Shown here: positions 10,806-48,644 of the stretch, piece by piece
Position numbering within the stretch: position 1 is the first letter of the stretch
How the letters are laid out: each line of letters opens with the position of its first letter
NCBI GenBank assembly: GCA_902363515.1
Contig: CABJAN010000017.1
Coordinates: 1 to 64,000, forward strand
DNA from: Bacillota bacterium
Lineage (GTDB): Bacteria > Bacillota > Clostridia > Lachnospirales > Lachnospiraceae
DNA length: 64,000 nucleotides
Reading direction: 5' to 3'
Notes under the pieces: model-generated
Database searches by the model: none
Told to the model about the DNA's origin: nothing
The model's input: the letters and a program-made list of their open reading frames with translations, nothing else
Translations under genes and position numbers: made by a program

Positions 10806-12755
10806 ATGAAGAAAAGAGCAAAATGGCTTGCTGTTGCATTGTCTTTAGCACTTACTTTATCCACAACTGCTTGCGGTGGCGGTAAAGACGGCGGAAGCAA
10901 AGACGATGGCGGCAAAGGTGGAGATTCTGCATCTGCAGAAGAAATCAAAGACCTGGTTACTTGGGAGACAGGTAACAGAGAGATGGAAAACGTATTCATC
11001 CTGGGTACTGAGATGGCAAATGACCTGAATGTTTTATGTAACACCAATGAAGGTCTTCTGGAAACAGACGCCAAAGGAAAGCTTGTTCCTGGTCTTGCTG
11101 AGAAGTGGGGAACAGAAGATGGCGGTCTTACCTGGAAGTTTGAATTAAGAGAAGGCGTGAAATGGGTTGACCAGCAGGGTAATGAAAAAGCAGAATGTAC
11201 TGCACAGGACTTCATTACCGGTCTTGAGTGGGTTATGAACTACCACAAAAATGCTGCAATGAACACTTCCATGCCAACAGCTTTAATCAAAGGCGCTGGC
11301 GATTATTATGAGTACACCAAAGGTCTTTCAGAAGAGGAAGCAATGAACATCGATAACACCAAATTCCTGGAAATGGTAGGAATCGAAGCTCCGGATGATT
11401 ATACTCTGATTTATCACTGTACACAGAATGCACCATACTTTGATACTGTAGCTGTATCTGCCTGCCTGTATCCTCTGGCACAGGGCTTTGTAGACGAAGT
11501 AGGTGTTGAAAATGTAAAATCCACTGGTATTGAAGGACTGTGGTATAACGGACCTTACACTCTTACAGAGTACATCCAGGGAAATACAAAAACTCTGACA
11601 CAGAACCCATTATACTGGGATAAAGACTGCAAGCTTTTTGATACCGTTACTATTCGTATTGTAGATGATGTAACTGTTGGATATTCTCTGTATGAAGCAG
11701 GCGAAATCGACCACATTGACCTGGGCGAAGCAAACCTGAGAACAATCTACGAAGATGAGAGCAATCCGTTCCATGATCAGTTAGTAGAAAAAACACCAAA
11801 GAAATTTTCTTATCAGATGCACTTCAACTATGCTAAGAATAATGAAGACGGAACACCAGATGATAACTGGAATAAAGCTGTAGCAAACGAAGCATTCCGT
11901 CAGGCTATTTACTACGGATTAGACTTCACAACTTACATGGCAAGAACAAACTTCATTTATCCAATGCACTGCGAAAACAATGCATACACCATGAAAGGTC
12001 TTCTGTACTTCTCTGATGGAACAGACTATGTAACAAAAGTAGAAGAAGGTCTTGGACTTCCGGAATCTGACGGTGAAACACCAAGAAGATTAAATGCAGA
12101 CAAAGCAGCAGAGTACAAAGCTCAGGCAATGGAAGAACTGAAAGCTCAGGGTGTAACCTTCCCGGTAGAAATGGATTATTACATTTTGGCTGGTTCTCAG
12201 TCTGCACAGGATACAGCAACTGTATTAAAACAGGCAGTTTCTGAATGCCTTGGTGATGATTTTGTTAAGTTAAATATCGGTACTTTTGTATCCAGTACAA
12301 CAAAAGAAGTTGTTGAGCCAAGATTACAGTCCTTTATTATTAACGGATGGGGCGCTGACTACGGTGATCCACAGAACTACTTAGGACAGGAAACATATGG
12401 CGAAGACACTGCTTATTATTCACAGAACTACTCACATATTAATGAAGTAAAAGATGAAAAACTCATTGCAACTTACAAAGAGTTTACAGATCTGGTAAAT
12501 AAAGCTAATTCTATTTCTGACGATATGGATAAGAGATATCAGGCATATGTAGATGCAGAGGTATTCATGTTGCAGCATGCTCTGTCTGTTCCTGTTGTTT
12601 ATGATGTTTCATGGCAGCTTACAAAAGTTAATGATTATACAAGATCTAACGCTATGTTCGGTATCCAGAACTACATGTACAAAAACTGGGATACATCTGT
12701 AGAAGCCTATACTACAGAACAGTATGAGAAATTCGCAGAGGATTTCAATAAATAA
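10806..12755 (+). CDS. oppA: Oligopeptide ABC transporter substrate-binding lipoprotein
   Basis: A 649-residue family 5 solute-binding protein that captures peptides outside the cell for the OppBCDF importer. It has a lipoprotein signal ending STTAC (lipid-modified Cys23), a Gly/Lys/Asp-rich linker and SBP_bac_5 blocks such as LVPGLAEKWGTEDGGLTWKF and FRQAIYYGLDF. A GGAGG site precedes the ATG. It shares one base with oppB. The encoded protein is somewhat longer than the usual 540-600 residues. Peptides are the default ligand, but family 5 also includes metallophore and dipeptide binders. Confidence 0.93.
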   Translation: MKKRAKWLAVALSLALTLSTTACGGGKDGGSKDDGGKGGDSASAEEIKDLVTWETGNREMENVFILGTEMANDLNVLCNTNEGLLETDAKGKLVPGLAEKWGTEDGGLTWKFELREGVKWVDQQGNEKAECTAQDFITGLEWVMNYHKNAAMNTSMPTALIKGAGDYYEYTKGLSEEEAMNIDNTKFLEMVGIEAPDDYTLIYHCTQNAPYFDTVAVSACLYPLAQGFVDEVGVENVKSTGIEGLWYNGPYTLTEYIQGNTKTLTQNPLYWDKDCKLFDTVTIRIVDDVTVGYSLYEAGEIDHIDLGEANLRTIYEDESNPFHDQLVEKTPKKFSYQMHFNYAKNNEDGTPDDNWNKAVANEAFRQAIYYGLDFTTYMARTNFIYPMHCENNAYTMKGLLYFSDGTDYVTKVEEGLGLPESDGETPRRLNADKAAEYKAQAMEELKAQGVTFPVEMDYYILAGSQSAQDTATVLKQAVSECLGDDFVKLNIGTFVSSTTKEVVEPRLQSFIINGWGADYGDPQNYLGQETYGEDTAYYSQNYSHINEVKDEKLIATYKEFTDLVNKANSISDDMDKRYQAYVDAEVFMLQHALSVPVVYDVSWQLTKVNDYTRSNAMFGIQNYMYKNWDTSVEAYTTEQYEKFAEDFNK

Positions 12756-34694: not shown

Positions 34695-34715
34695 ACCGGG
34701 AAAGTCCCGGTTTTT
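34695..34715. terminator. Short perfect hairpin upstream of ltaE
   Basis: accggga (34695-34701) pairs with tcccggt (34705-34711) around loop aag, with five T residues on the plus strand. No plus-strand gene precedes it. On the minus strand it falls in the ltaE 5' leader, between any promoter and the ribosome site. It may block antisense transcription or structure the leader. Confidence 0.5.
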
Positions 34716-34907
34716 GACAACTATGGATTTATTCTAACACAGAATACTGGTTCTGCACAGAGGGAAAAATCAGGTTAGTGTTGAGGTTTTGGGGAATTAT
34801 AGATATAATTACAGATATATAGCAAAGGCAAACATACAGTTTATGCACAAAATAAAGTATCCATTCATACATAAATAATAGAAAACATCAGGGGAAGGAA
34901 AACAAGT

Positions 34908-35744
34908 ATGGAATTTTATAAATATCACAGTCTGGGAAATGACTATCTGGTATATGACTGCAGAAAGAATGAAGAAGAATTAGAGCCGGAGAAGATTATA
35001 AGAATCTGTGCGCGGAAATTTGGAATTGGAGCAGATGGTATTGTAGCAGGCCCTTACATGCAGGGCGGCCAGATGCACGTAAAGGTTTACAATGCGGATG
35101 GTTCGGAGGCAGAGCAGGGAGGAAATGCCATCCGTATTTTTGCTCATTATTTAAAGAGCACAGGAGAGGTGAAGCGGGAGAGTTTTTCTCTTTTTACCAA
35201 AAGCGGTGAGGTGGAAATCAGGTTTTTGAACCGGGAAGGAACCAGGATTCAAATGACTATGGGACAGCTTTCCTTTAGCAGTAAAAAATTGGGGCTTTCA
35301 GGACCGGACAGAGAAGCTATCCATGAGTATTTTAATTTTGGCGGTGAGGAATATGACTGTACCTGTGTGTCCACGGGAAATCCCCACTGTGTTATTATAA
35401 CAGAGGACATTTCCAGGGCTAAAGTATGCGGAATCGGAAAATATTCAGAGGGTGCAGATTATTTTCCGGACAGAACCAATACCATCATTGTGAAGGTGCT
35501 GGACAAAAATAATATTCAGATTGAAATCTTTGAGCGGGGTGTGGGATATACTCTTTCTTCGGCAACCTGTAGTTGTGCAGCAGCCGGGGCGGCTTTTCGC
35601 CAGGGATTGATTGACTCAGACGTGATGGTGCATATGCCGGGAGGAAAGCTGTGGACCCAGATTGATGAGAACTGGAATGTGAAAATGATAGGAAGTGTGA
35701 AGAGAATCTGTAAGATAGAACTGTTTGAGGACTTTTTTCACTAG
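34908..35744 (+). CDS. DapF-fold protein lacking both catalytic cysteines
   Basis: A 278-residue diaminopimelate epimerase homologue: it begins YKYHSLGNDYLVYDC and keeps FGIGADGI, NADGSEAE and STGNPHCV. The first active-site motif, normally CGNG, reads GGNA (Gly71 in place of Cys), and the second, normally LACGTGACA, reads LSSATCSCA (Ser218 in place of Cys, GTG loop altered). The standard two-cysteine racemisation is therefore not possible. The nearby Cys221 and Cys223 might serve another chemistry. It is an intact gene, not a pseudogene. It lies only 21 nt upstream of the YesM-type kinase gene. Confidence 0.82.
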   Translation: MEFYKYHSLGNDYLVYDCRKNEEELEPEKIIRICARKFGIGADGIVAGPYMQGGQMHVKVYNADGSEAEQGGNAIRIFAHYLKSTGEVKRESFSLFTKSGEVEIRFLNREGTRIQMTMGQLSFSSKKLGLSGPDREAIHEYFNFGGEEYDCTCVSTGNPHCVIITEDISRAKVCGIGKYSEGADYFPDRTNTIIVKVLDKNNIQIEIFERGVGYTLSSATCSCAAAGAAFRQGLIDSDVMVHMPGGKLWTQIDENWNVKMIGSVKRICKIELFEDFFH

Positions 35745-35765
35745 AAGAGAGGGGCGGCTTCTCAT

Positions 35766-37460
35766 ATGAAAAAAATTATCAGAACGATGCACTTAAATAA
35801 GATGTTATCACTTATGCTTTTATGTTTATTAGTTATACAAAGTGTGGTTGTATGGGAATTTGGATCTTTTGGTACTATGATGCTTCGGCAACAAGAGGAG
35901 GAGTCTGTAGATTATATTTTAAAAACTTACCGTACAAATTTAAATAAAGCGTTAAATAAGATAGAGAGTGATTTGCAGGACATTCTTTCAAATCAAGTTA
36001 CATTGCAAATGTTAAAAAACCGTTCTGACTTGCGGCGTTGGAGGGCTAGTTATAATTTGACTTCTCTTTTAGATGAAAAGCGAGTTACAACTCAGGATGT
36101 AGACGGATATGTGATTTCAGATACAGCATATAATACGTTTCTTATGGCAAGAAATAAAAATATTGCATATTCAGATTTGGATGATATTGAATCTTTTTTT
36201 AAGCAGATTGACAGGGGGGAAATTATTAGTTCTGGATGGACAGCGGCAGAGATTAATAAAAAGGGTTATTTGCTTAAATACTATAATTACGGAGAAATCT
36301 TAATCGGGGCAATCGTTTCCCAAGAAAAAGTACAGCAAATTTTATCTTATGGACAGGATACTGATACAGGGATTGAATTTTTTGTAACCAATAATGAAAA
36401 AGAAATTATTTGTTCATCAAATCCTACCTGGCAATACGGACAGAAAATAGAGGAAAATGGAAATTCTGTGTTACGAGAGCAGAAAATTTTGGACGGAGAA
36501 TATTTGGTCATGGGAAGTATCCAGCATGTGGGGCTGGGAGCCCAGACACCGTATTTTTTTATCATTCTGTTTTTTTTAATTTTAGTGGTGGTATTGCTGC
36601 TATTTCTTCGCTTTTTTATGAATAAAGAAGTGATTGGTCCAGTTAAGGTTTTGTCAGATACCTCAGAAAAAATTCAGCAGGGAAATCTTATGGTGAGGCC
36701 TAGCTATGAATGTTGGAATCAGGAAATGTTGGAATTGAAAGAGACATATGCTATGATGTTGAACACGATTATGGATTTAAAGGTGCAACACTATGAAAAA
36801 ATGATTCAAGTAAAGGATTCAGAATTAAAATATATGCATATGCAGCTTAAACCCCACTTTTTTCTGAATGCTTTATCTACGATTAACAGTATGGCATATC
36901 AAAACAAGAATGAAGAAATTCATGATTTTATTCAGGTGTTTTCAGAGAATATACGTTATATGTTTAGAGCAGGGCTACGCACAGTCCCGCTGAAAGAGGA
37001 AATTGCACATGTGGAGAAATATCTGGATATGCAAAAGCTTCTTTATGCCAATAGTTTTTATGCATATTATGAGATGCCTGAGCAGCTTGAGGAATATCCG
37101 ATACCGCAGATGTTGCTGCATACCTTTGTGGAAAATATCTTTAAGCATGTAATTGATATTAATTCTTTTACTACGATTTTTATTGTGTGTTCTTTGGAAG
37201 AACATAATCAGGAAAGCATGCTAAAAATCGAAGTACAGAATACAGGAAAATGTTTCGAGGAGGAAACATTACGCAGAATTAATGGTACAGGAGAAGATGG
37301 AAATAGTAGTGGAGGAATTGGTTTAATGCACACAAAAGAAATTCTATCTATTCTGTATGGACAAAATTCTCTTATTTGGTTGGAAAATGAAGAGCCCGAA
37401 GGGGCAAAGGTGACAGTTTGGATACCAGAAAAAGTAGAACGTGATTTTCATAAGAGCTAG
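35766..37460 (+). CDS. YesM-type sensor histidine kinase
   Basis: A 564-residue membrane kinase. Transmembrane helices at about 13-33 and 262-285 flank an extracellular sensor region (Cache-like). HAMP follows, then the His_kinase region MQLKPHFFLNALSTIN (His364) and a HATPase domain with FVENIFKHVID and GGIGLMHTKEIL. It pairs with the response regulator 12 nt downstream. Such pairs usually control a neighbouring sugar-type ABC importer, here the one starting at 39189. Codons are much richer in A and T than in the preceding genes. Confidence 0.9.
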   Translation: MKKIIRTMHLNKMLSLMLLCLLVIQSVVVWEFGSFGTMMLRQQEEESVDYILKTYRTNLNKALNKIESDLQDILSNQVTLQMLKNRSDLRRWRASYNLTSLLDEKRVTTQDVDGYVISDTAYNTFLMARNKNIAYSDLDDIESFFKQIDRGEIISSGWTAAEINKKGYLLKYYNYGEILIGAIVSQEKVQQILSYGQDTDTGIEFFVTNNEKEIICSSNPTWQYGQKIEENGNSVLREQKILDGEYLVMGSIQHVGLGAQTPYFFIILFFLILVVVLLLFLRFFMNKEVIGPVKVLSDTSEKIQQGNLMVRPSYECWNQEMLELKETYAMMLNTIMDLKVQHYEKMIQVKDSELKYMHMQLKPHFFLNALSTINSMAYQNKNEEIHDFIQVFSENIRYMFRAGLRTVPLKEEIAHVEKYLDMQKLLYANSFYAYYEMPEQLEEYPIPQMLLHTFVENIFKHVIDINSFTTIFIVCSLEEHNQESMLKIEVQNTGKCFEEETLRRINGTGEDGNSSGGIGLMHTKEILSILYGQNSLIWLENEEPEGAKVTVWIPEKVERDFHKS

Positions 37461-37472
37461 GAGAAGAGATGT

Positions 37473-39047
37473 ATGAATTTACTGATTGTAGATGATGAGG
37501 TTGTGACTACAGAAGTTTTGAAAGAACAAATTGACAGAAAGAAAATTCCTATCCGACAGATTTTTGTGGCGTATAATGCAGCTATGGCAAGAGAATGTCT
37601 GGAACATCAGAAGATAGACATTGTTCTCTGTGATATTGAGATGCCAAAAGAAAGTGGACTTGAATTATTGGAATGGATTCGCAAAAGGAATAAAGAGATA
37701 GAATTTTTGTTTCTTACTAGTCATGAAAAATTTGAATATGCATTTGGGGCGGTGAAAAACGGAGCGGCAAATTATTTGTTGAAACCTTTAGATATGCCTA
37801 CAATCAATCATGCACTCTATGTTGTAACAGAAAAAATATGTAAGAAAAGGCAGATGAGTTTGGCAGAAGAATATTGGAGTCATGGAAAGAGGAAAGTAGA
37901 AGCAGATTTTTGGAGATCTGTTTTGCGGGGGGACTTGGGAAATGAGGAAAAGGAAATCCAAATGGAAATTGAGCGGTACGGTCTTGGATTGGAAAAAGAA
38001 AAGAGGTATACCCTTGTTTTAATTCGTGTGCGCAAAGAAGCAGTATTTGCAGAGATACAAAATACGTCTTTGAATCAGTTTATCTTAGATAATATTTTAG
38101 CAGAAACATTTACCAGAAATTTAAAGATGGAAAATGTAATTCATTGGGAAGATAATGGAGAGTATTATATCTGCGCCGTATCCGATATGGAAGGAAATGA
38201 GGTAAAAAGAAGGGGAGAAGAAGTCTGTTCTTTGCTGAACCAGTTTTATGCGAATCCTATTTATGTTGGATATATTTCAGATGAGGGGACTATAGTAGAA
38301 TTGGGAAATATTTGCAGGGGAATTCTAGCCTATGATAGAAAACATATGCATGATGAAGGGAAATTGCTGATTTTTGCGGAAATTACAGGAGAACAGCATA
38401 CACTGGAGAATGTATTGGATGCGAAATTTATTTTTTCTTGTTTAGAGAAAGGAGAGCGTGTAAAACTTTTAGAATACCTTCAGAAAATGGTAGCAGAAGT
38501 AAAACGAAGAGATACAAGTCTCGCTAATATTCAATATTTTCAGATGGACTTTTTACAGATAATTGGAGTATATCTTCATAAGCAAGGTATGGATTTGGAG
38601 ATTTTATTTGAAGACAGCAATTATGTGGATATTCAAAAGGAATCCCTTACTTCAGAATTATCTATGATTCGCTGGAATGCATATGTGGTAAATAAAATTT
38701 TTGACAGTATTAAAAGCAGAGAAAAAAGTGATAATATGGTGGAAATATTGGTGGACTATATTCGCCAGCATTATGAAGAAAATATAACCCGAAATACTTT
38801 GGCAGAAATGGTACATTTTTCACCGGAATATGTGGGAAAAACATTTAAAAAACAAACAGGAAGCAGTATTAATGATTATGTAAATCAACTTAGGATTGAA
38901 GAAGCTAAGAGATTGCTAAAAGGAACGGATAATAAAGTGATTGATATAGCTTTAATGGTAGGGTTTGAAAATATGCCTTATTTTTCTTCTGTATTTAAAA
39001 AATATACAGGATGTTCTCCGGCAGAATATAAAAAAATTTATGGATAA
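37473..39047 (+). CDS. YesN-type response regulator (REC + AraC HTH)
   Basis: A 524-residue regulator. The receiver domain has the phospho-acceptor in IVLCDIEMPKESGLELL (Asp54), a long linker region spans about 130-410, and the AraC DNA-binding domain ends the protein (NTLAEMVHFSPEYVGKTFKK, then MVGFENMPYFSSVFKKYTG). It likely activates the operon that starts beyond the terminator at 39086. The gene is A+T-rich like its neighbours. Confidence 0.92.
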   Translation: MNLLIVDDEVVTTEVLKEQIDRKKIPIRQIFVAYNAAMARECLEHQKIDIVLCDIEMPKESGLELLEWIRKRNKEIEFLFLTSHEKFEYAFGAVKNGAANYLLKPLDMPTINHALYVVTEKICKKRQMSLAEEYWSHGKRKVEADFWRSVLRGDLGNEEKEIQMEIERYGLGLEKEKRYTLVLIRVRKEAVFAEIQNTSLNQFILDNILAETFTRNLKMENVIHWEDNGEYYICAVSDMEGNEVKRRGEEVCSLLNQFYANPIYVGYISDEGTIVELGNICRGILAYDRKHMHDEGKLLIFAEITGEQHTLENVLDAKFIFSCLEKGERVKLLEYLQKMVAEVKRRDTSLANIQYFQMDFLQIIGVYLHKQGMDLEILFEDSNYVDIQKESLTSELSMIRWNAYVVNKIFDSIKSREKSDNMVEILVDYIRQHYEENITRNTLAEMVHFSPEYVGKTFKKQTGSSINDYVNQLRIEEAKRLLKGTDNKVIDIALMVGFENMPYFSSVFKKYTGCSPAEYKKIYG

Positions 39048-39085
39048 AATTTTTTATATTGTGATAAGTGAATAATTAATATCTT

Positions 39086-39133
39086 AAAAATGAAAGTTTT
39101 TATACTTTTTTGTATAAGAATTTTCATTTTTTT
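39086..39133 (+). terminator. Terminator after the response regulator
   Basis: aaaaatgaaa (39086-39095) pairs with tttcattttt (39122-39131), with an inner tatac/gtata pairing, followed by further T residues. It separates the regulatory genes from the binding-protein operon, which therefore needs its own promoter in 39134-39180. A TATAGT-like -10 is seen near 39141. Confidence 0.7.
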
Positions 39134-39188
39134 AATGCTATAGTTATTGTATCAAACAAAGAGAAGTAATAAAAAAGGAGGAAGGCGT

Positions 39189-40715
39189 ATGATGAAAAAA
39201 ATGTTGGCGGCATTTCTGGCAGTTACCATGGCAGGAACGATGTTAGCAGGATGTGGCACTGAGGAAAAGACCGGCAAAAGTTCAGAAAAGAAGGAAACAG
39301 AAGAAGGGGTTGACGAAATTGTCTTTGCCTATATGACACAGAATAATATCCCTGAAGCAAAAGAGTTACAGAGAATTGAGGATTTGATTAATGACTATAC
39401 GGTTGAAAAAATCAATACGAAGGTAGATTTAGCTATTTTTTCAAATGCTGATTATGTAAATCAAGTGAATTTAATGTTAGCATCAGGTGAAAAATTAGAT
39501 GTTTTCCAGGCATATAATACATCTCATTTGAAATATATTCAAGATGGAACGGCCTTGGATATTACGGAATATCTGGATAATGAGTTGAAAGAAACCTGTG
39601 AGACTATATATGACGGATTTTTAAAACCTACAACCGTAGAAGGGAAAACCTATGGTGTTCTTAATATGGGTTCCAATTATGTACCAGGAGGTTTTACTTA
39701 CAGAGAGGATATTGTGGAAGAACTTGATATTGATATGAGTGCTGTGACAAAACCTGAAGATTTAACAGCAGTTTTTGAAAAAGTAAAAGAAGCATATCCA
39801 GATATGGTTATTATTGATCCGAATAGAGCAAATGCATTATTTGAAACTTATTTGGGCAAAATCGCATGTTTTGACCCATTGGGCGATAATATCGCTAACA
39901 CAGTGTCCGGTGTGGCATATCAGGATGATTCAACAGTGGTTAGCATTTATGAGACACCAGAGTTCCATGAACTCTGCGACCTTACTAGAAGCTGGTATGA
40001 AGCAGGGTATTATGCCAGTGATGCAGCAACCACAACAGCGACGACTGCAGAGCTCCTTATGTCAGGGAATTGTTTTGGAACTTTCTGTGGTTTAGGAAAT
40101 CCTAAGATTGCAGAACAATATACTACAAATTATGGACATCCTTTTGATAATGTACAGATTAGCGATTCCATGATTTGGGCAGGTAATAATAATGCATGGA
40201 TGGTGAATTCTGGAAGCGAAGCACCGTCTGCAGCGTGTAAGTTTTTAAATTTACTGTATACGGATGAATATGTTGATAATCTCTTAGTTTATGGTGAAGA
40301 AGGAGTTGACTATGTGCTGAATGAAGACGGTTGTGCAGTAGCCCCTGAAGGATACACAGATTTGAATAGTGTAGCATATACTAATAATATGAATTATTAT
40401 TTCTGGGGAAATAAATGGCTTACTTATCCTGTTGTAGGTGGTTTGACAGGAGAAGAAAAAGAAAAAAATATGGAACAAAACTATACAGGAGAACATTCCA
40501 AGTATTATGGATTTCTTTATGATTACAGCGCAGAACAAGCTGAGTATACAGCGTGTCTGAATATTGTTGAGGAATATAAGAAGGCTCTCTGGGTAGGAGC
40601 AGTGGATGTGGAAGAAACTCTGGATGAAATGACAAAGCGTTTAGAAGCTGCTGGTATGAATAAACTTATAGAAAGCAAACAGGAACAATTGGACAAATGG
40701 CTGTCTGAACAATAA
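39189..40715 (+). CDS. ABC transporter substrate-binding lipoprotein (LplA-like)
   Basis: A 508-residue extracellular solute-binding lipoprotein. The signal ends MLAGC (Cys22), followed by a Lys/Glu/Ser linker and a family 1 type fold (LNDYTVEK-, ANADYVNQV-like blocks, MLASGEKLDVFQAYN). The frame opens at 39147, but the ATG at 39189 follows AAAGGAGG and starts the signal peptide. It should feed the two permeases downstream. No ATPase gene is in the operon, so a shared MsmK/UgpC-type ATPase is expected. LplA relatives bind complex sugars; here the ligand may be atypical. Confidence 0.9.
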   Translation: MMKKMLAAFLAVTMAGTMLAGCGTEEKTGKSSEKKETEEGVDEIVFAYMTQNNIPEAKELQRIEDLINDYTVEKINTKVDLAIFSNADYVNQVNLMLASGEKLDVFQAYNTSHLKYIQDGTALDITEYLDNELKETCETIYDGFLKPTTVEGKTYGVLNMGSNYVPGGFTYREDIVEELDIDMSAVTKPEDLTAVFEKVKEAYPDMVIIDPNRANALFETYLGKIACFDPLGDNIANTVSGVAYQDDSTVVSIYETPEFHELCDLTRSWYEAGYYASDAATTTATTAELLMSGNCFGTFCGLGNPKIAEQYTTNYGHPFDNVQISDSMIWAGNNNAWMVNSGSEAPSAACKFLNLLYTDEYVDNLLVYGEEGVDYVLNEDGCAVAPEGYTDLNSVAYTNNMNYYFWGNKWLTYPVVGGLTGEEKEKNMEQNYTGEHSKYYGFLYDYSAEQAEYTACLNIVEEYKKALWVGAVDVEETLDEMTKRLEAAGMNKLIESKQEQLDKWLSEQ

Positions 40716-40721
40716 TAAAGA

Positions 40722-40756
40722 CAAAGGCTGCCGCATTTTGAATGCCGCAGCCTTTG
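40722..40756 (+). terminator. Strong hairpin between binding protein and permease genes
   Basis: A 10-bp stem (caaaggctgc/gcagcctttg) continues after a C-C mismatch into gcatt/aatgc with loop ttg. No T-run follows. Such hairpins commonly protect the 3' end of the binding-protein message so that it is made in excess over the permeases; partial termination is also possible. Confidence 0.7.
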
Positions 40757-40783
40757 ACAATCTTAAAAGAAAAGGAGACAGAC

Positions 40784-41707
40784 ATGACAAAAAGTAGAAA
40801 GAAAAAATTAAATAAAAATACGCTATCCCTTTTTCTCATTGCCCTTCCAGGAATAACGTATTTGGTTATCAATAATTATATACCGATTATGGGGATTTTT
40901 ATAGCGTTTAAGAATTTTAGTTATGCGAAAGGAATTTGGGGCAGCCCTTGGTGTGGTTTAGATAATTTTAAATTTTTATTTATTACAGATGATGCGTGGG
41001 TTATTACCCGAAATACTTTATTATACAACTTGGCATTTATTGTTATTGGGACAATTATTTCCATAGCATTTGCGATTTTGCTTCATGAATTAGGAGAACG
41101 AATCAGAGGAAAATTTTTTCAATCGGTTTTGTTGTTTCCGCATTTGCTTTCCTGGGTGGTAACGGCGTATTTAGTATATGCACTTTTGGGAACTAATAAT
41201 GGGTTTATTAACAATACAGTTTTGAATGGACTTGGAAAAGAAGGAATTGACTGGTATACCGCTAAAAATATGTGGCCGCTAATTCTGTTACTTGTATACT
41301 TATGGAAAAATGCAGGATATAACGCTATTGTTTATATGGCAGGAATTGCAGGAATTGATAAAGAAATTTATGAAGCTGCTAAAATTGATGGGGCGAGTAA
41401 AATGAAACAAATTACATCTATTACATTACCAATGTTAAAACCTACCGTTATTATTATGACACTTATGTCTATTGGTCGTATTTTTTATTCTGATTTCGGA
41501 TTGTTCTACCAAGTGCCTATGAATGCGGGAACTCTGATTTCCACAACTCAAACCATTGATACGTATGTATATAGAGGACTTATGGAACAGGGAAACATAG
41601 CCATGTCATCAGCGGCAGGAGTGTATCAATCGCTTGTAGGTTTTGCTCTTGTTATGATTGCAAATTATATTGTGCGGAAGAAAGATCCAGAAAATGCATT
41701 GTTTTAG
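40784..41707 (+). CDS. Carbohydrate-type ABC permease (LplB-like)
   Basis: A 307-residue membrane permease with six helices and a BPD_transp_1 core. The EAA loop reads EIYEAAKIDGASKMKQIT. The N-terminus (YIPIMGIFIAFKNFSYAKGI) is typical of LplB/YtcP-type systems. The ATG at 40784 follows AAAGGAGA. It forms a heterodimer with the next gene product. Confidence 0.92.
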   Translation: MTKSRKKKLNKNTLSLFLIALPGITYLVINNYIPIMGIFIAFKNFSYAKGIWGSPWCGLDNFKFLFITDDAWVITRNTLLYNLAFIVIGTIISIAFAILLHELGERIRGKFFQSVLLFPHLLSWVVTAYLVYALLGTNNGFINNTVLNGLGKEGIDWYTAKNMWPLILLLVYLWKNAGYNAIVYMAGIAGIDKEIYEAAKIDGASKMKQITSITLPMLKPTVIIMTLMSIGRIFYSDFGLFYQVPMNAGTLISTTQTIDTYVYRGLMEQGNIAMSSAAGVYQSLVGFALVMIANYIVRKKDPENALF

Positions 41708-41718
41708 GAGGTTGCATT

Positions 41719-42615
41719 ATGAATATATCTATCAGTGATGAAAAAAGATTCCGAACCATTGCCACCATAATTCTTCTGACAATTAGTTTAGTGGCGTTAT
41801 TTCCTATGCTGCTTCTTGTAGTGGCATCATTTACAGATGAAAATGAATTGATTACCAGAGGATATCAGATTTTGCCTAATAAATTTAGCCTGGAAGCCTA
41901 TACTTATATGGTAAAGCAGGCACCTACCATTGTAAGGGCTTATCTGGTAACTATTGGAACGACTGTTATTGGGACAACTTTAAGTGTGATTCTTACAACC
42001 TCCATAGCATATCCTATGGCACGTCGCACTTTTCCGTTTAAAAATGCATTGTCATTTTTTGTGTATTTTACCATGTTGTTTAATGGAGGGTTAGTGCCAC
42101 AGTATATTATGTGGACTACGATTTTTCACATTAAAGATACCTATGCGGCATTAATCTTCCCTAATTTGTTAATGACTGCATTTAATGTATTTCTGGTGCG
42201 GAATTATTACAGTAATAGTTTGCCTGAGGCGTTATATGAAGCAGCACAATTAGACGGAGCCTCAGAAATTGGTATTTTTGCTAAAGTTGTTTTTCCATTG
42301 TCCAAGCCAGTTATTGCTACAATTGCATTGTTTACAGGGCTTTCTTATTGGAATAGCTGGACAAATGCGTTGTACTATGTCCAAGATCCTAAGTATTTTG
42401 GAATCCAGAATTTGCTTATGCGTATTATGAAAAATATAGAATATTTGCGAACTGGTGCAGCGGAAATGGCAGCAGAAGGACAAGCAGTATCACTTCCGGG
42501 AAATTCTATTCGTATGGCGTTGGCGTTTATTGGAATTTTGCCGATTCTGATTATTTATCCTATGCTACAGAAATATTTTATCAAAGGTGTTGTTGTGGGA
42601 GCTGTAAAAGGGTAA
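41719..42615 (+). CDS. Carbohydrate-type ABC permease (LplC-like)
   Basis: A 298-residue partner permease with six helices. The EAA loop is EALYEAAQLDGASEIGIFAK, and the C-terminal MLQKYFIKGVVVGAVKG ending is typical of LplC/YtcP-type subunits. It follows the first permease by 11 nt with an AGGAGG site. Confidence 0.92.
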   Translation: MNISISDEKRFRTIATIILLTISLVALFPMLLLVVASFTDENELITRGYQILPNKFSLEAYTYMVKQAPTIVRAYLVTIGTTVIGTTLSVILTTSIAYPMARRTFPFKNALSFFVYFTMLFNGGLVPQYIMWTTIFHIKDTYAALIFPNLLMTAFNVFLVRNYYSNSLPEALYEAAQLDGASEIGIFAKVVFPLSKPVIATIALFTGLSYWNSWTNALYYVQDPKYFGIQNLLMRIMKNIEYLRTGAAEMAAEGQAVSLPGNSIRMALAFIGILPILIIYPMLQKYFIKGVVVGAVKG

Positions 42616-42634
42616 GAGATTAGGAGGAATAGAG

Positions 42635-43417
42635 ATGGCAGCTTTTGTACATTGTAATTTCCGGTCAAATATTTTATGTATGTCTGTAGATGTTTCTGTT
42701 TTGCTTCCTGATAATGAGAGGAGCAGATTGTTTCTGGAAAACAAACAGGAACCAGTGAAATATAAAACGTTATATTTACTTCATGGGTTTACAGGGGATT
42801 ATATGAGCTATCTGCGAACTTCAAATATCGAAAGATATGCAGACGAGTATCAGATTATGGTGGTTATGCCAAGTATTTATAATAGTGCATATACAGACAT
42901 GAAATATGGTTTGGATTATTTTACATATCTTTCAAAGGAATTGATGCATTTTATTGAATTAACATTTCCTGCTTCTCAAAAAAGAGAAGAACGATTTGTG
43001 GCAGGAATGTCTATGGGAGGCTATGGTGCTTATAAATTTGGGCTTTCCTGTCCGGAAAAATTTTGTGCTATTGGCGGAGTAGCAGGGTCTTATCATGCAG
43101 AATACAGATATCAGGGAAAGGTATCCACAGTATCTACATTATGTGAGGGTCTTTATGGAGATCCACCACAGATTGTACCAGAGGTTCATGATGTTTTTAC
43201 TTTATTGAAACAATTGAAAGAAGAAGGAAAAGAAATACCAAGACTCTATACCTGCTGCGGAACAGAGGACCGTAGATACCAGGATTCTGTAGATTTAAAA
43301 GAATTTGCAGAGAAATTGGAAATTCCTATGGTTTTTGAACAGGGGCCAGGAAAACATGATATGATATTCTTTGATGAATATATTCAAAGAATATTAAAAT
43401 GGATGTTGTGTCCATAG
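42635..43417 (+). CDS. Alpha/beta-hydrolase esterase (EstA/FrmB-like)
   Basis: A 260-residue esterase of the esterase-D/tributyrin-esterase family. The oxyanion block LYLLHGFTGD, the nucleophile elbow GMSMGGYGAY and the catalytic histidine in GPGKHDMIFFDEY are visible. It has no signal peptide, so it acts on imported substrates. Related enzymes cleave short acyl, acetyl or feruloyl esters. Its position after the permeases and before citrate lyase suggests it opens an ester in the imported compound. Confidence 0.85.
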   Translation: MAAFVHCNFRSNILCMSVDVSVLLPDNERSRLFLENKQEPVKYKTLYLLHGFTGDYMSYLRTSNIERYADEYQIMVVMPSIYNSAYTDMKYGLDYFTYLSKELMHFIELTFPASQKREERFVAGMSMGGYGAYKFGLSCPEKFCAIGGVAGSYHAEYRYQGKVSTVSTLCEGLYGDPPQIVPEVHDVFTLLKQLKEEGKEIPRLYTCCGTEDRRYQDSVDLKEFAEKLEIPMVFEQGPGKHDMIFFDEYIQRILKWMLCP

Positions 43418-43430
43418 GAGGTATAGGCAT

Positions 43431-44357
43431 ATGAGGCTGGAGAAAATTTTTAATGAGTTTATTGAGTATAGTGAAAAGGAAAAACTGTATATCGAAGGTA
43501 TTGCCATAGCAGATGAGGTGCAGGTGCTAATGGAACATCATTTTACACCTGATTTACCGAGAAATATATATTCCCACACAAAAAGTTATATGGCAACAGC
43601 AGCTGGTATTGCTATTGAAGAAGGTAAGCTTTCTTTAGATAATCGGTTGGCAGATTTTTTTCCGGAGTATTTACCCAAACAGGCAGATTCTCGTTTGTCT
43701 GAGATAACTTTGAGAAATCTTCTCACTATGTCAAGTGGTTTTCATAAGCCTTATTTAATGGGAAAAGATAGAAGAGAAGGCATAGGAATGCCAGATTATA
43801 TGGAATATATGATGTCACGTCCTATTGTTTGTGAGCCTGGAAGCAGATTCTTGTATTCTACAGCAGATAGTATTCTTGCTGGCAGGATGATTGAAAAAGC
43901 TGTGGGAATGAGATTGGGAGTGTATCTGTATGAGAGACTTTTTCGTAAATTAAACCAGGGATGGCCGCAATGGGAAAATGACCCTCAAGGGCACCCGATA
44001 GGCGGCGGTGGTATGCATATGACCCTTACAGATATGATGAAATTAGGTCAGCTATATTTAGCAGATGGAATCTGGAAAGGGGAACAGTTAATATCGCACA
44101 ACTGGATACAAGAGGCAACAAAAAAGCAAATTGATACAGAAGGTGAACAGGATATCTGGAAGTGCGGATATGGATATCAATTTTGGATGTCTCCTTATCC
44201 AAAGGCGTACCGTGCAGATGGAGCTTATGGACAGATTACAACCGTTTTGCCAGAACAGAATCTGGTTGTAGCTGTCCAATGCCCAGAATACGGAGACTTT
44301 GAAAAAGTGAAACGAGCGCTTCACACAAAAATATTTTTGCCTATTATAAAGGATTAA
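43431..44357 (+). CDS. Beta-lactamase-fold serine hydrolase
   Basis: A 308-residue class C beta-lactamase/esterase-family protein. The SxxK motif is SHTK in NIYSHTKSYMATAAGIA, the second-motif tyrosine is in FLYSTADS, and a GGGGMHMTLTDM block follows. The C-terminal part contains AYGQITTVLPEQNLVVAV. It has no signal sequence, so it is cytoplasmic; esterase, amidase or peptidase activity is more likely than antibiotic resistance. It is the second hydrolase of the citrate lyase operon. Confidence 0.83.
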   Translation: MRLEKIFNEFIEYSEKEKLYIEGIAIADEVQVLMEHHFTPDLPRNIYSHTKSYMATAAGIAIEEGKLSLDNRLADFFPEYLPKQADSRLSEITLRNLLTMSSGFHKPYLMGKDRREGIGMPDYMEYMMSRPIVCEPGSRFLYSTADSILAGRMIEKAVGMRLGVYLYERLFRKLNQGWPQWENDPQGHPIGGGGMHMTLTDMMKLGQLYLADGIWKGEQLISHNWIQEATKKQIDTEGEQDIWKCGYGYQFWMSPYPKAYRADGAYGQITTVLPEQNLVVAVQCPEYGDFEKVKRALHTKIFLPIIKD

Positions 44358-44377
44358 AAAAGATAAGAAGGTAATGT

Positions 44378-44677
44378 ATGAAGATATTAAAACCAGCAGT
44401 AGCAGGAACTTTAGAATCTAGTGACTGTCAGGTGACAGTAGAACCAGGCGGAGGGAAGATTGAGCTTCAAATTAAAAGTTCTGTCTTTCACCAATATGGC
44501 AAACAAATCCGCAATACAATTATGGAAACATTAGAAAAGTTAGACGTAAAAGATATAAAAATTGGGATTGTTGATAGAGGGGCCTTGGATTGTACGATTC
44601 GTGCCAGAGTAGAAGGAGCTGTGTACCGTTCTGTAGGAAAAACAGAGCAGCTTCCATGGGGAGGTGCAATTCAGTGA
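44378..44677 (+). CDS. citD: Citrate lyase acyl carrier protein (gamma subunit)
   Basis: A 99-residue acyl carrier protein of citrate lyase. The attachment serine for the phosphoribosyl-dephospho-CoA arm lies in AGTLESSDCQVTV (Ser14 expected). The conserved centre IRNTIMETLEKLDV and the end DRGALDCTIRARVE are present. The citX and citG genes that build the cofactor are not in the window. Its stop overlaps the GTG start of citE. Confidence 0.94.
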   Translation: MKILKPAVAGTLESSDCQVTVEPGGGKIELQIKSSVFHQYGKQIRNTIMETLEKLDVKDIKIGIVDRGALDCTIRARVEGAVYRSVGKTEQLPWGGAIQ

Positions 44678-45576
44678 TTCAAGCAGATAAGATGAGACTT
44701 CGCAGAACTATGATGTTTTTAAATGTTCAGAAGCCAGGACTTTTAAAAGATCCATATATTTACAGACCAGACTCTCTTATATTAGATTTGGAAGATGCAG
44801 TAGCGGAAAGTCAAAAAGATGTTGCCAGATTTTCATTGTTTCACGCATTAAGAACCATTGATTACAGAGGTTGTGAACGCATTGTCAGGATTAACGGATT
44901 AGATACGCCTTATTGGAAAGAGGATATTCGCTGTGCAGTAGCAGGAGGATGTGATGGGATTCGCATTCCAAAGACAGAGTGTGCACAGGATATTCATATT
45001 GTAGAGAGAGAAGTTAAGAAAGCAGAAGAAGAGTTTGGAAGACCAGAGGGAAACGTGCTGCTTATGGCAGCTATTGAGTCTGCCAAAGGAGTGATGCGGG
45101 CACTGGAAATATGTGAGGCATCAGAGCGTTTATTTGGCGTGGCCCTTTCTGGTGGTGATTATACGAAAGATTTGCAGACTCACATTACAGGCACAGGAAT
45201 CGAATTGATGGGAGCCAGACAAAATCTAGTGATAGCCGCAAGAGCAGCAAAAGTACAATGTTTTGACACAGTTTATACTGATCTGGAGAACATGGAAGGA
45301 TTTCGACAGGATGTGATGAATATCCACCTTATGGGATTTGATGGAAAGTCCATTATTAATCCCAGACAGATTTCTATGGTTCATGAAATTTTTACACCTT
45401 CACAAAAAGATATTCTTTTTGCAGAAAAGGTGGTAAGAGAAATTGAGGATAAAAAATCCAGGGGAATCGGTGTTTTTGTTGTAGATGGGAAAATGATAGA
45501 TATTGCTTTCTATGATGGAGCAAAACGTACGATTGCATTGGCTAAAGCCTCTGGCGTATATAAGGGGGAGTTGTAA
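44674..45576 (+). CDS. citE: Citrate lyase beta subunit (citryl-CoA lyase)
   Basis: A 300-residue HpcH/HpaI aldolase-family subunit that cleaves the citryl-thioester to oxaloacetate and acetyl-carrier. It shows LRRTMMFLNVQKPGLL, SLILDLEDAVAESQKD, VRINGLDTPYW and IRIPKTE. The GTG at 44674 overlaps the citD stop and has GGGAGG 8 nt upstream. A longer open frame starts at 44590 but lies inside citD. Confidence 0.94.
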   Translation: MIQADKMRLRRTMMFLNVQKPGLLKDPYIYRPDSLILDLEDAVAESQKDVARFSLFHALRTIDYRGCERIVRINGLDTPYWKEDIRCAVAGGCDGIRIPKTECAQDIHIVEREVKKAEEEFGRPEGNVLLMAAIESAKGVMRALEICEASERLFGVALSGGDYTKDLQTHITGTGIELMGARQNLVIAARAAKVQCFDTVYTDLENMEGFRQDVMNIHLMGFDGKSIINPRQISMVHEIFTPSQKDILFAEKVVREIEDKKSRGIGVFVVDGKMIDIAFYDGAKRTIALAKASGVYKGEL

Positions 45577-45577
45577 C

Positions 45578-47131
45578 GTGCAAAATGCAGTGGGAAGAGA
45601 AATACCAGAAGATATTTTACAGCTTACGGGAAAAGAGGTTTTTCATGGAAATCAGTATTTTGATGGTTATGAATTTCAAAAAGCAGGTGCAAAAATTCAG
45701 AGTGTAAGTCATTCAGGTGGCAGTAAATTGGTGAAGAATCTGCGCGAAGCAATAAAAAAGTGTGGAATTAAAGATGGTATGACAATAAGTTTTCATCACC
45801 ATTTTAGAGATGGCGATTATGTAGTGAATATGGTGATGGAAGAAATCCATAGTATGGGAATAAAAAATATTACAATCTGTGCAAGTTCTCTTGGCAAGGC
45901 ACAGGATGGTTTGGTAAAATATATTGAAGATGGAACCATAACCAACATTCAATCCTCAGGAGTCCGTGGAGAAATCGGACGGGCTATTTCCAAAGGAAAG
46001 TTACAAGGATTAGCAATTATGCGTTCCCATGGCGGAAGGGTAAGAGCTATCGAGACGGGGGAAACACATATTGATATTGCGTTTATTGGTGCGCCTACTT
46101 GTGATGATTATGGAAACTGTAGAGGGATTGGAGGAAAATCAGACTGTGGAGTGCTGTCTTATGCTATGGTAGACGCGGACTATGCAGATAAAGTAGTGGC
46201 TATTACAGATTGTCTGGTGCCTTTTCCTAACTTCCCGGCACATATATCTATGACAAAGGTAGATTATGTAGTAGTAGCGGAGGCTATTGGAAACCCAGAA
46301 AAAATTGCTACTGGAGCAGCGAAACCCACAAAGGATATGAGAAAGCTTATGATGGCAGATTACTGTACAGAATTTGTTGTTCATACACCATATTTTAAAA
46401 ATGGATTTTCTTATCAAACAGGCGTAGGAGGCGCCTCCATTGCATCTACAATTTCATTGTCAAAAATCATGAAAGAAAAAGGAATAAGAATGAGATTTGG
46501 CGTGGGAGGACTTACAAAGCCAATGTGTGATCTTTTGTTAAACAATCAAGTGGATGTTTTATTAGACACACAGGATTTTGATTTAGACGCTGTGGAGTCT
46601 GTAAAGGATGAACGCCATTTTACCATTAGTGCAGGAGAATATGCTAATCCGTTTAATAAAGGTGCAGTAGTAAATAAATTGGATTTTGTAATATTGGCAG
46701 CTTTGGAAGTGGATGTAAACTTTAATTGCAATGTGGTGGTTGGATCAGATGGGATTATTACAGGAGCCCAGGGAGGGCATCCGGATACCGCTGCAGGGGC
46801 AAAATGTACAATCGTAATTACCCCCTTGTTGCAAGGGCGTATTCCGGCTATCCGGACAGAAGTAACCACTGTAACAACACCAGGAGAATCCATAGATGTA
46901 GTAATTACGGATTATGGAATTGCTATTAATCCACGCAGGAAGGATTTGCAGGCTTGTATGGAACAAGTTGAACTACCATTTACCACAATTGAGGAGCTTC
47001 GAGATGTAGCTTATAAGATTGCAGGTATACCAGAACCAGTGGAATTTGAGGATAGGATTGTAGGAATTATCGAAAGTAGAGATGGAACGATTATGGATGT
47101 GGTTCGTCAAATTAAAACAGGAGAAGAATAA
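45578..47131 (+). CDS. citF: Citrate lyase alpha subunit (citrate-ACP transferase)
   Basis: A 517-residue CoA-transferase-type subunit that loads citrate onto the carrier and releases acetate. Motifs include VSHSGGSKLVKNLREAIKKC, MTISFHHHFRDGDYVVN, AFIGAPTCDDYGNCRG and TTVTTPGESIDVVITDYGIA. The GTG at 45578 follows GGGGGAG by 7 nt. It is the last clearly A+T-rich gene of the island. citC (the activating ligase) is missing here and must be elsewhere for a working enzyme. Confidence 0.94.
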   Translation: MQNAVGREIPEDILQLTGKEVFHGNQYFDGYEFQKAGAKIQSVSHSGGSKLVKNLREAIKKCGIKDGMTISFHHHFRDGDYVVNMVMEEIHSMGIKNITICASSLGKAQDGLVKYIEDGTITNIQSSGVRGEIGRAISKGKLQGLAIMRSHGGRVRAIETGETHIDIAFIGAPTCDDYGNCRGIGGKSDCGVLSYAMVDADYADKVVAITDCLVPFPNFPAHISMTKVDYVVVAEAIGNPEKIATGAAKPTKDMRKLMMADYCTEFVVHTPYFKNGFSYQTGVGGASIASTISLSKIMKEKGIRMRFGVGGLTKPMCDLLLNNQVDVLLDTQDFDLDAVESVKDERHFTISAGEYANPFNKGAVVNKLDFVILAALEVDVNFNCNVVVGSDGIITGAQGGHPDTAAGAKCTIVITPLLQGRIPAIRTEVTTVTTPGESIDVVITDYGIAINPRRKDLQACMEQVELPFTTIEELRDVAYKIAGIPEPVEFEDRIVGIIESRDGTIMDVVRQIKTGEE

Positions 47132-47136
47132 AACAA

Positions 47137-48084
47137 ATGGAAAATCTTATACTATCCTTTAATGTAATCGCCCCATTATTTTTTCTCATGGTCATTGGTT
47201 ATATACTGGTACATGGGACAAAACTGGCGGATAAAGAACTGTGCAGCAAGGCAAATGCTTTAGTGTTTAAGGTGTTTTTGTCCTGTATGCTGTTTAAAAA
47301 CATTTATCAAAGTGATATTAAGACCCAGATGAAAGGAGAACTCTGCCTGTTTGCTGCAGGCAGTCTCCTTGTGCTGTTTTTGCTTTTGTGCTTTATTGTC
47401 CCAAGGATTGTAAAGCAGGAAAATCAGCAGGGAGTTGTTATCCAGGGGATTTTCCGCAGTAATTATGTGATTTTTGGCGTTGCTGTTGTAGAGAGTATGT
47501 ATGGGTCGGAAAATACCGTAACAGCCGCGATTTTAAGCGCTATTTTAGTACCAATGTACAACCTGCTGGCAGTCATCGCGCTGTCTGTGTTTGGAGAAAA
47601 ACGGGAGCATGACTGGAAAAAAGTCATTGGGAATATTGTGAAGAATCCATTGATTCTTGCGTCTGTTCTTGGGATTCTTTTCTCCTGTGCCGGTATCCGG
47701 CTTCCACAGGCGGTGGAAACAACGGTTAGCGATTTGGCAAAACTGGCAACGCCTATTGCCTTTCTGATACTTGGCGGGGATTTTGATTTTTCAAAGGTAA
47801 AAGGGAACTTAAAAACAGCGGGCTGGGTCATTTTTGTAAAAATGATTGCGCTGCCTGCGGTAATGATTCCCATTATTATCAGTATGGGGTATCGTAATGC
47901 AGAACTTTTGTCGGCTTTGCTGGCTTATCAGACACCGGTAGCAGTGTCCAGTTATATTATGGCTCAGCAGGCAGGGGCAGACGAACAGCTTGCGGGACAA
48001 CTTGTGGTGTTTAGCTCCGCTGCATCAGTAGTTACGCTGTTTGTTACCATCTTTCTCCTGAGACAGCTTGGCTATCTTTTATAA
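47137..48084 (+). CDS. AEC-family transporter
   Basis: A 315-residue auxin-efflux-carrier family membrane protein with about ten helices. It starts NVIAPLFFLMVIGYILVHGT and has LGGDFDFSKVKGNLK and YQTPVAVSSYIMAQQAGAD. Firmicute AEC carriers such as MleP move malate or other organic acids, so export or uptake of a citrate-pathway acid is plausible. It starts 5 nt after citF but its codons look like those of the host rather than the A+T-rich island. Its 3' end overlaps the convergent Spo0A-C gene by 41 nt. Confidence 0.87.
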   Translation: MENLILSFNVIAPLFFLMVIGYILVHGTKLADKELCSKANALVFKVFLSCMLFKNIYQSDIKTQMKGELCLFAAGSLLVLFLLLCFIVPRIVKQENQQGVVIQGIFRSNYVIFGVAVVESMYGSENTVTAAILSAILVPMYNLLAVIALSVFGEKREHDWKKVIGNIVKNPLILASVLGILFSCAGIRLPQAVETTVSDLAKLATPIAFLILGGDFDFSKVKGNLKTAGWVIFVKMIALPAVMIPIIISMGYRNAELLSALLAYQTPVAVSSYIMAQQAGADEQLAGQLVVFSSAASVVTLFVTIFLLRQLGYLL

Positions 48085-48529
48085 ATTGCAGGAAGTGAGC
48101 GCTCATTTCAGCAGAAACTTTCTCAAGAGCCTCCTGATATAGCTGTTCTCTATAAATACAGTGTTCAAAGTCACATTTGGCTTCTGGAATTGCCGAAAAT
48201 GTTTTGTGATTTTCGCCCTGCTTCATTCTCAGAAAGAGGGTTCTTAAAAGATTAGAATTTTGGGTGTTGACTACATCCAGATAATATTCTACGCTTTCCC
48301 GGTTTCCCTTGGAAATAGCGGTTTCAAAAGCATGACGGATAGCCCGGTCCACACTGGAAGGTTTTGTGTTACGTTTTTTAGCAATGGCAGCATATAAAGA
48401 ACAGATTTTGCCAGAGCTGTAGTAGGCATCTGTATCGAATAAATCCATGGCATCATGAATATAAGTAAAGCCCTTTACATTGGCTGGTATTCCTATTTCT
48501 AACAGTACGTCTACGATTTCGCTTCTCAT
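48044..48529 (-). CDS. Orphan Spo0A C-terminal domain protein
   Basis: A 161-residue protein whose first 100 residues match the Spo0A DNA-binding domain: IVDVLLEIGIPANVKGFTYI, YAAIAKKRNTKPSSVDRAIR and HAFETA. There is no receiver domain. The last 60 residues are helical and unrelated. It may bind 0A-box-like sites without phosphorylation control. It is divergent from an XRE regulator with a shared 166-bp control region. Confidence 0.8.
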   Translation of the reverse strand: MRSEIVDVLLEIGIPANVKGFTYIHDAMDLFDTDAYYSSGKICSLYAAIAKKRNTKPSSVDRAIRHAFETAISKGNRESVEYYLDVVNTQNSNLLRTLFLRMKQGENHKTFSAIPEAKCDFEHCIYREQLYQEALEKVSAEMSAHFLQFIKDSQAVSGERW

Positions 48530-48599
48530 TTGTTTTTTGTATCCTTTCTTTCTTGTACGTGTGTCACGTTACAACAATTATATGTCATTTTGCAACATA

Positions 48600-48644
48600 T
48601 GTCAATGAGGAAATGTTGACACCGTGACTATAATGGAGTATAAT
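48600..48644 (+). promoter_or_regulatory. Promoter with inverted repeat for the XRE regulator
   Basis: A consensus TTGACA (48616-48621) and TATAAT (48639-48644) have a 17-bp spacer. TGTCAA (48600-48605) and TTGACA form an inverted repeat with a 10-bp gap covering the -35. Further TGTCA/TGACA copies occur at about 48562, 48583 and 48656. This fits operator sites for the XRE protein controlling both divergent genes. Confidence 0.7.

Follow-up and report, generated by a model that had tools for sequence, protein, structure and literature searches.

A Lachnospiraceae gene block joining an LplABC-like importer, hydrolases and citrate lyase, with a possible role in the use of citrate conjugates

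As it has been described, citrate fermentation begins with free citrate that enters through a dedicated carrier. The 64,000 nt of contig CABJAN010000017.1 analysed here (the window), from a bacterium of the Lachnospiraceae, raise the question of why a complete citrate lyase (citDEF) should stand behind an importer of oligosaccharide kind and two hydrolases. The original prediction was that citrate arrives bound to a larger ligand and is freed inside the cell. We find that citrate within a larger ligand is still the best reading, because linked blocks occur in three other genomes, none of the carriers CitMHS, 2HCT and TctA lies within 8 kb of these and the solute-binding protein (SBP) is nearest to oligosaccharide binders; the part assigned to a beta-lactamase-fold enzyme did not hold as well, as its gene is outside the conserved core. 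With roughly even confidence, we suggest from sequence that the block imports citrate esterified to a molecule that is aromatic or carries a sugar, and that the ester would be cleaved inside.

The gene block and its encoded functions

The co-directional block of YesM/YesN, lipoprotein SBP, LplB/LplC, two hydrolases, citDEF and an AEC carrier was confirmed by open reading frames and protein families, and comprises 12 tightly packed genes on the + strand (34908-48084) when counted from a dapF-like gene that ends 21 bp 5' of yesM and is an addition to the block originally noted. Ten of the 11 junctions from the dapF-like gene to the AEC gene measure -4 to 26 bp, while the remaining one, between yesN and the SBP gene, is 144 bp. 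The features are as follows.

34908..35744, +, dapF-like first gene of the block (TIGR00652, 213 bits); membership of the system doubtful
35766..37460, +, yesM-type sensor kinase (PF06580 His_kinase, PF02518 HATPase_c); conserved in L001-L005
37473..39047, +, yesN-type response regulator with AraC-type helix-turn-helix (PF00072, PF12833); conserved in L001-L005
39092..39125, +, inverted repeat with a T run 3', may act on the SBP transcript as operator or attenuator; in 6/6 block copies
39189..40715, +, lipoprotein SBP (DUF3502, NgtS-like; PF12010, PF01547); lipobox LAGC by eye
40742..41707, +, lplB-type permease (PF00528 BPD_transp_1); 76-83% identity in L001-L005
41719..42615, +, lplC-type permease (PF00528 BPD_transp_1); 76-88% in L001-L005
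42635..43417, +, CE1-type esterase, predicted cytosolic (PF00756); 65-79% in L001-L005
43431..44357, +, beta-lactamase-fold serine hydrolase, predicted cytosolic (PF00144); a variable member of the block
44378..44677, +, citD, citrate lyase acyl carrier protein (TIGR01608, over the NCBIfam cut-off)
44674..45576, +, citE, citrate lyase beta subunit (TIGR01588, full length, below cut-off); putative GTG start
45578..47131, +, citF, citrate lyase alpha subunit (TIGR01584, over cut-off); GTG start predicted by comparison with relatives
47137..48084, +, AEC-family carrier (PF03547); no match in L001-L005

The lipoprotein SBP is of the SBP_bac_1 kind and, together with the two BPD_transp_1 permeases, makes up a CUT1 importer resembling LplABC; the ribosome-binding site and lipobox guided the choice of the SBP start codon, which was made by eye. 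All three citrate lyase subunits are present in adjacent genes, CitF scoring 668 bits against an NCBIfam cut-off of 501, and the window CitE is 83% identical to citE of L181, a cluster bearing a CitMHS gene. Neither hydrolase start has a signal peptide, as judged by eye. Among the block proteins there is no glycoside hydrolase, whereas NgtS-type importers go with a linked endoglycosidase or mannosidase, and no Rfam family matched within 34700-48600 at the gathering threshold. Scans for promoters and terminators gave no excess over shuffled sequence (53 vs 52.6 and 10 vs 9.9, respectively). Beyond the block, at 48577-48644, a fragment of a Spo0A-like gene and a gene resembling an HTH repressor flank two perfect, divergent TTGACA-17-TATAAT matches separated by 11 bp.

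The dapF-like protein has both DapF catalytic cysteines replaced, with Gly and Ser at the aligned sites, and none of the 120 homologs listed has Cys at either site (one row is gapped at each). It was therefore rejected as an ordinary diaminopimelate epimerase for want of the cysteine pair, and appears as a member of a widespread cysteine-free DapF-like family. As it also has no match in L001-L005, we left the gene out of the mechanism.

Linkage of importer, esterase and citrate lyase in related genomes

Relatives were located by scanning genome contigs with an alignment of 30 esterases. Among the best 80 of 404 loci, five encode an esterase with 65-79% identity to that of the window and the other 75 one with at most 41%; since these are the best 80 only, the five block copies are a lower bound. 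They come from Parablautia intestinalis (L001, genome G001), a metagenome-assembled genome (MAG) titled Oscillospiraceae (L002), Fusicatenibacter saccharivorans (L003, genome G003) and two MAGs (L004 and L005). The order yesM-yesN-SBP-lplB-lplC-esterase is kept in all five, and in three (L001-L003) citDEF lies 3' of the esterase gene: citD follows directly in L001 and L003, and in L002 a gene at 10859-11824, LysR-type by eye, stands between. For the beta-lactamase-fold, dapF-like and AEC proteins of the window, L001-L005 gave no match. The neighbourhood of SBP, permeases, esterase, beta-lactamase-fold enzyme and citDEF that the original prediction proposed to check is thus conserved in its core (5/5) and in part for citDEF (3/5), and not for the beta-lactamase-fold gene (0/5).

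In L001-L003 the SBP, LplB, LplC, esterase, CitE and CitF are 73-88% identical to those of the window, CitD 67-70%, and YesM and YesN 37-57%. The window's L1 ribosomal protein is 79-87% identical to that of six out of seven genomes (none was found in G004).

The absence of citC, citX and citG, to which the original prediction drew attention, is true of the 64-kb window, where tblastn with five proteins of relatives found none at E<=1e-3. It fails as a diagnostic sign, because citC and citXG adjoin the block in all of L001-L003, and we regard the gap in the window as a local feature. They are divergent and 5' of yesM in L001 (citC being cut by the contig end), convergent and 3' of citF in L002, and co-directional and 3' of citF in L003. 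An aconitase-like gene also follows citF in L001 (13793-15055, an open frame without the first ~215 profile positions), and 7 of 53 citF loci have an aconitase gene nearby.

How specific the association is was examined in 397 genomes of the family of F. saccharivorans. The esterase and SBP clades are confined to the same two genomes, G001 and G003, beside citDEF in both; the esterases score 516 and 496 bits, the next best 307, and the SBP reaches 79% identity, the next best 40%. CitF is found in 46 of the 397 genomes (44 over cut-off), and in 5/5 genomes with a close esterase, which would have a probability of 2e-5 if these were independent draws, kinship being ignored and two of the five lying within the sample. 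The SBP clade is patchy, occurring in 1/37 genomes of the genus of G001, in 2/120 of the family sample of G002 and in 1/216 of a class sample, all of them genomes already known.

Further, 53 citF loci (L157-L206 and L001-L003) were compared, leaving out seven places with partial or fragmentary citF and two matches below cut-off; five of the loci are short (L167, L182, L185, L198 and L160; 3.7-8.7 kb, contig ends). An LplBC importer lies near five of them (L001, L002, L003, L188 and the doubtful L206), and one of the carriers CitMHS, 2HCT or TctA lies within 8 kb of 21, with no locus having both. L206 was dropped as support, since it has a different SBP, with a sulfatase between the importer and a broken citF; this is a second citF of the P. 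intestinalis genome (9010-9903), matched in two pieces. The original prediction was staked on citDEF seldom standing without the importer and hydrolases in relatives. For citDEF at large the importer is mostly missing; seen from the importer, three of five copies have citDEF behind, and CitF is present in every one of the five genomes.

Around the citDEF of the window, L001-L003 and L188, the flanking 8 kb contain none of the carrier genes CitMHS, 2HCT and TctA, and single CitMHS, 2HCT, TctA and chromate-transporter proteins used as tblastn queries found no relative in the 64 kb at E<=1e-5. The window thus lacks what marks a carrier-linked citrate-fermentation cluster, the AEC protein belonging to a different family. 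Whole-genome carrier searches covered seven genomes (G001-G005, G042 and G112). Here 2HCT is absent from G001, G002, G003 and G112 and present in G004, G005 and G042; TctA is absent from G001, G003 and G112 and present in the other four; and the broad CitMHS superfamily is absent only from G112, an assembly of unstated completeness. A citF of G004 is followed after ~150 bp by a 2HCT gene, and ~3 kb separate a citF and a 2HCT gene in G005. Seven of the 53 loci (L168, L175, L179, L190, L200, L202 and L205) have a chromate-transporter-family gene on the citF strand at a distance of up to 8 kb, and these are possible citrate-linked carriers.

A second assembly was found in G112 (L188, L228), where one strand carries YesN-like, YesM-like, LplB, LplC, an SBP without DUF3502, a beta-lactamase-fold protein, citDEF and another beta-lactamase-fold protein. 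Its LplB and LplC are 29% and 32% identical to those of the window, and because these values are so low we have taken this importer as not orthologous. The first beta-lactamase-fold protein is only 29% identical to that of the window, while the one after citF is 56% identical and of its clade. By analogy, this run suggests the same as the window block. In G042 a 70% relative of the beta-lactamase-fold gene precedes citD-E-F-X-G-C at the contig start. At a threshold of >=450 bits in the 397 genomes, the clade occurs in six, beside citDEF in two of them (G042 and G112). Other members neighbour a DUF2961 gene (G197, G052) or dapF (G123), and that of G382 has none of citDEF, DUF2961 or dapF beside it, with partial AEC matches ~1 kb off. 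In G095, citF is followed by DUF2961 and then by a 39% match to the beta-lactamase-fold protein. As a side observation, DUF2961 genes stand directly beside beta-lactamase-fold relatives in L222 (9943-11049), L224 (7845-8894) and L185 (1178-2278), one of them also beside citF; DUF2961 is reportedly tied to GH172.

All six block copies share a 34-bp inverted repeat between yesN and the SBP gene, running from GAAAGTTTTT to AAGAAYTTTC and followed by a T run, with 29 of 50 columns invariant. Its pattern was found in 8 of 229 loci, namely L001-L005 and three re-fetches of G001, G002 and G003, and it occurs once in the window and in none of 100 shuffles. The RNA fold z-scores are -4.1 to -5.0 in the four copies folded (-4.9 in the window), two stem positions are altered on both sides (L003, L002; by eye), and an extended -10 resembling TGnTATAnT follows the repeat in most copies, again by eye. 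We infer that it serves as an operator, an attenuator or both.

As for the history of the linkage, the citF tree (52 rows) places the window, L002, L003, L185 and L188 in one clade at 99/91. A single clade of the window, L001, L002 and L003 was not rejected in the citE+citF tree (p-AU 0.118).

Ligand, mechanism and competing explanations

The closest solved relatives of the SBP by sequence are NgtS entries (E 2e-28), and its model is matched best by NgtS, AlgQ2 and other oligosaccharide binders in Foldseek; this likeness hints at an oligosaccharide-like ligand. NgtS is reported to stack Trp386 on the sugar (PMC5215778), and this residue aligns with Tyr403 of the window SBP (inferred numbering). 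R212, K408, W329, W405 and W409 are fixed in the six block SBPs and missing from five related ones, and might suit a ligand with rings and perhaps a carboxylate. In the esterase, S126, D212 and H241 are invariant in 30 aligned sequences, and in the beta-lactamase-fold protein S48, K51 and Y142 are so in 26 (each set chosen from 120 listed). The model of the latter (predicted local distance difference test, pLDDT, 92.5) is nearest to Lsa45, PIB-1, 6-aminohexanoate-dimer hydrolase and further esterases with the same fold.

We therefore propose, as far as gene families can tell, that YesM/YesN would detect the ligand and exert their control at the inverted repeat 5' of the SBP gene. The SBP, LplB and LplC, served by an ATPase encoded elsewhere, would import a ligand with a sugar or aromatic part plus citrate, and the CE1-type esterase, perhaps helped here by the beta-lactamase-fold enzyme, would cut its ester bonds in the cytosol. 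CitDEF would split the freed citrate into acetate and oxaloacetate, as is the function of its family, after activation by CitC and CitXG, which are encoded beside the block in three relatives. What remains of the ligand, we speculate, is either consumed or exported, in the window perhaps via the AEC protein. Citrate esters are known among plant esters of phenolic glucosides and among food emulsifiers. Parishins were considered as a candidate citrate-ester ligand. A citrate-containing siderophore, as put forward originally, fits poorly and is less likely, the importer being of the oligosaccharide kind.

Several observations weigh against a citrate conjugate. L004 and L005 carry the importer and esterase with no citDEF behind them (the L004 contig stops ~1 kb past the esterase; that of L005 does not, and no citDEF match comes after the esterase in the 10 kb covered), and the citDEF copies of G004 and G005 are elsewhere, one of them in each genome being near a 2HCT carrier. 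Most citDEF loci are without such an importer, 27 of the 53 citF loci having neither a listed carrier nor LplBC, and the lack of overlap between carrier and LplBC (0/53) is not far from chance and proves little alone. CitMHS-superfamily genes in G001-G003, and TctA in G002, lie on contigs other than that of the block, so that these genomes may have a further route for citrate. The core does not include the beta-lactamase-fold gene, whose clade is without citDEF in four of six genomes. The CitE score of 350 bits is below the NCBIfam cut-off of 443, though the match spans the full length, and the SBP model is of only moderate quality (pLDDT 74.7). Finally, the importer-linked citF clade was not reproduced in the citE+citF tree (28 chosen rows), and the idea of an importer-specific citrate lyase clade was dropped for that reason.

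The alternative that survives best, though we think it rather unlikely, is that the substrate of importer and esterase is an acylated oligosaccharide or aryl glycoside that contains no citrate, citDEF being co-expressed as free citrate shares the same food and enters via another carrier. It would account for L004 and L005 and for the CitMHS-superfamily genes of G001-G003. Five SBP relatives at 36-40% identity were inspected (L207-L211), and related importers in L207, L209 and L211 (SBP 35-39%, LplB 61-65%) come with CE1-type esterases and no citDEF was seen, which also favours it; these three importers have a NIF3-like gene as well. Against it stand the presence of CitF in all five importer genomes and the case of G112, where a different importer follows the same logic and where 2HCT, CitMHS and TctA all went unmatched.

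It is improbable that citrate, free or complexed with a metal, is what the importer carries while the hydrolases serve another purpose. The lack of the three carriers within 8 kb would agree with this, but the SBP and permeases are of oligosaccharide type, and a hydrolase accompanies the importer in all six copies and in G112. Still less credit is due to a chance junction of two unrelated operons: the block is patchy (1/37 in the genus of G001) and a single linkage event is not rejected, but the order has been kept in the window and three relatives with SBP, LplB, LplC, esterase, CitE and CitF at 73-88% identity and L1 ribosomal proteins at 79-87%, and G112 has its own version. Least probable of all is that one hydrolase deacetylates the citrate lyase acyl carrier protein to switch the enzyme off, an activity known biochemically, for which no sequence was found among the literature matches listed. 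A hydrolase does directly adjoin citD, but in L004 and L005 the esterase has no citDEF linked to it, and neither has the beta-lactamase-fold clade in four of its six genomes.

Returning to the uptake of a citrate ester, the wider proposal that gut Lachnospiraceae practise dedicated scavenging of citrate conjugates, with the same logic built around a second, unrelated importer in G112, is made more tentatively. If true, it would point to a pool of gut citrate esters that has gone unrecognised, an esterified route would widen the citrate sources open to anaerobes, and the orphan clades of DUF3502 binding proteins, CE1-type esterases and beta-lactamase-fold hydrolases would gain testable functions. 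The named isolate F. saccharivorans holds the block with citC and citXG, which makes the idea directly testable.

Comparison with known systems

In agreement with the original prediction, which knew of no pathway with this gene set, the literature matches listed hold no description of the arrangement. No paper was found joining citrate lyase, solute-binding, esterase and Lachnospiraceae, or citrate ester, citrate lyase and gut bacteria, and the titles and abstract starts of the matches listed had nothing on point for citrate lyase with YesM, LplB or lipoprotein LipO, nor for Fusicatenibacter with citrate.

The arrangement is a new version of the citrate-fermentation clusters. The nearest of these is that of Clostridium indolis DSM 755, also of the Lachnospiraceae, reported to have citXDEFGC, a two-component pair and CitMHS (PMC4149025). 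It shares citDEF with citC, citX and citG (here beside the block in L001-L003) and the two-component pair, and differs in its CitMHS carrier, in place of which we find an LplABC-type importer with esterase and YesM/YesN and no listed citrate carrier.

The N-glycan importer NgtS-NgtP1-NgtP2 of Streptococcus pneumoniae (PMC5215778) provides the best solved relative of the SBP by both sequence and model, and is likewise described with two permeases and no ATPase listed alongside. The identity is however ~22%, and the window block has esterase and citrate lyase and no glycosidase.

The esterase shares family and the conserved S, D and H with tributyrin and other CE1-type esterases (PDB 4rgy, 6vh9, 2uz0), but forms a separate clade found with the importer, to which outside relatives are at most 50% identical. 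The beta-lactamase-fold protein has the fold, S-x-x-K and Tyr of esterases and amidases such as Lsa45, PIB-1, 6-aminohexanoate-dimer hydrolase and family VIII esterases, at 18-26% identity; it is shorter, has no signal peptide by eye, and differs from them in that its clade stands beside citDEF here, in G042 and in G112.

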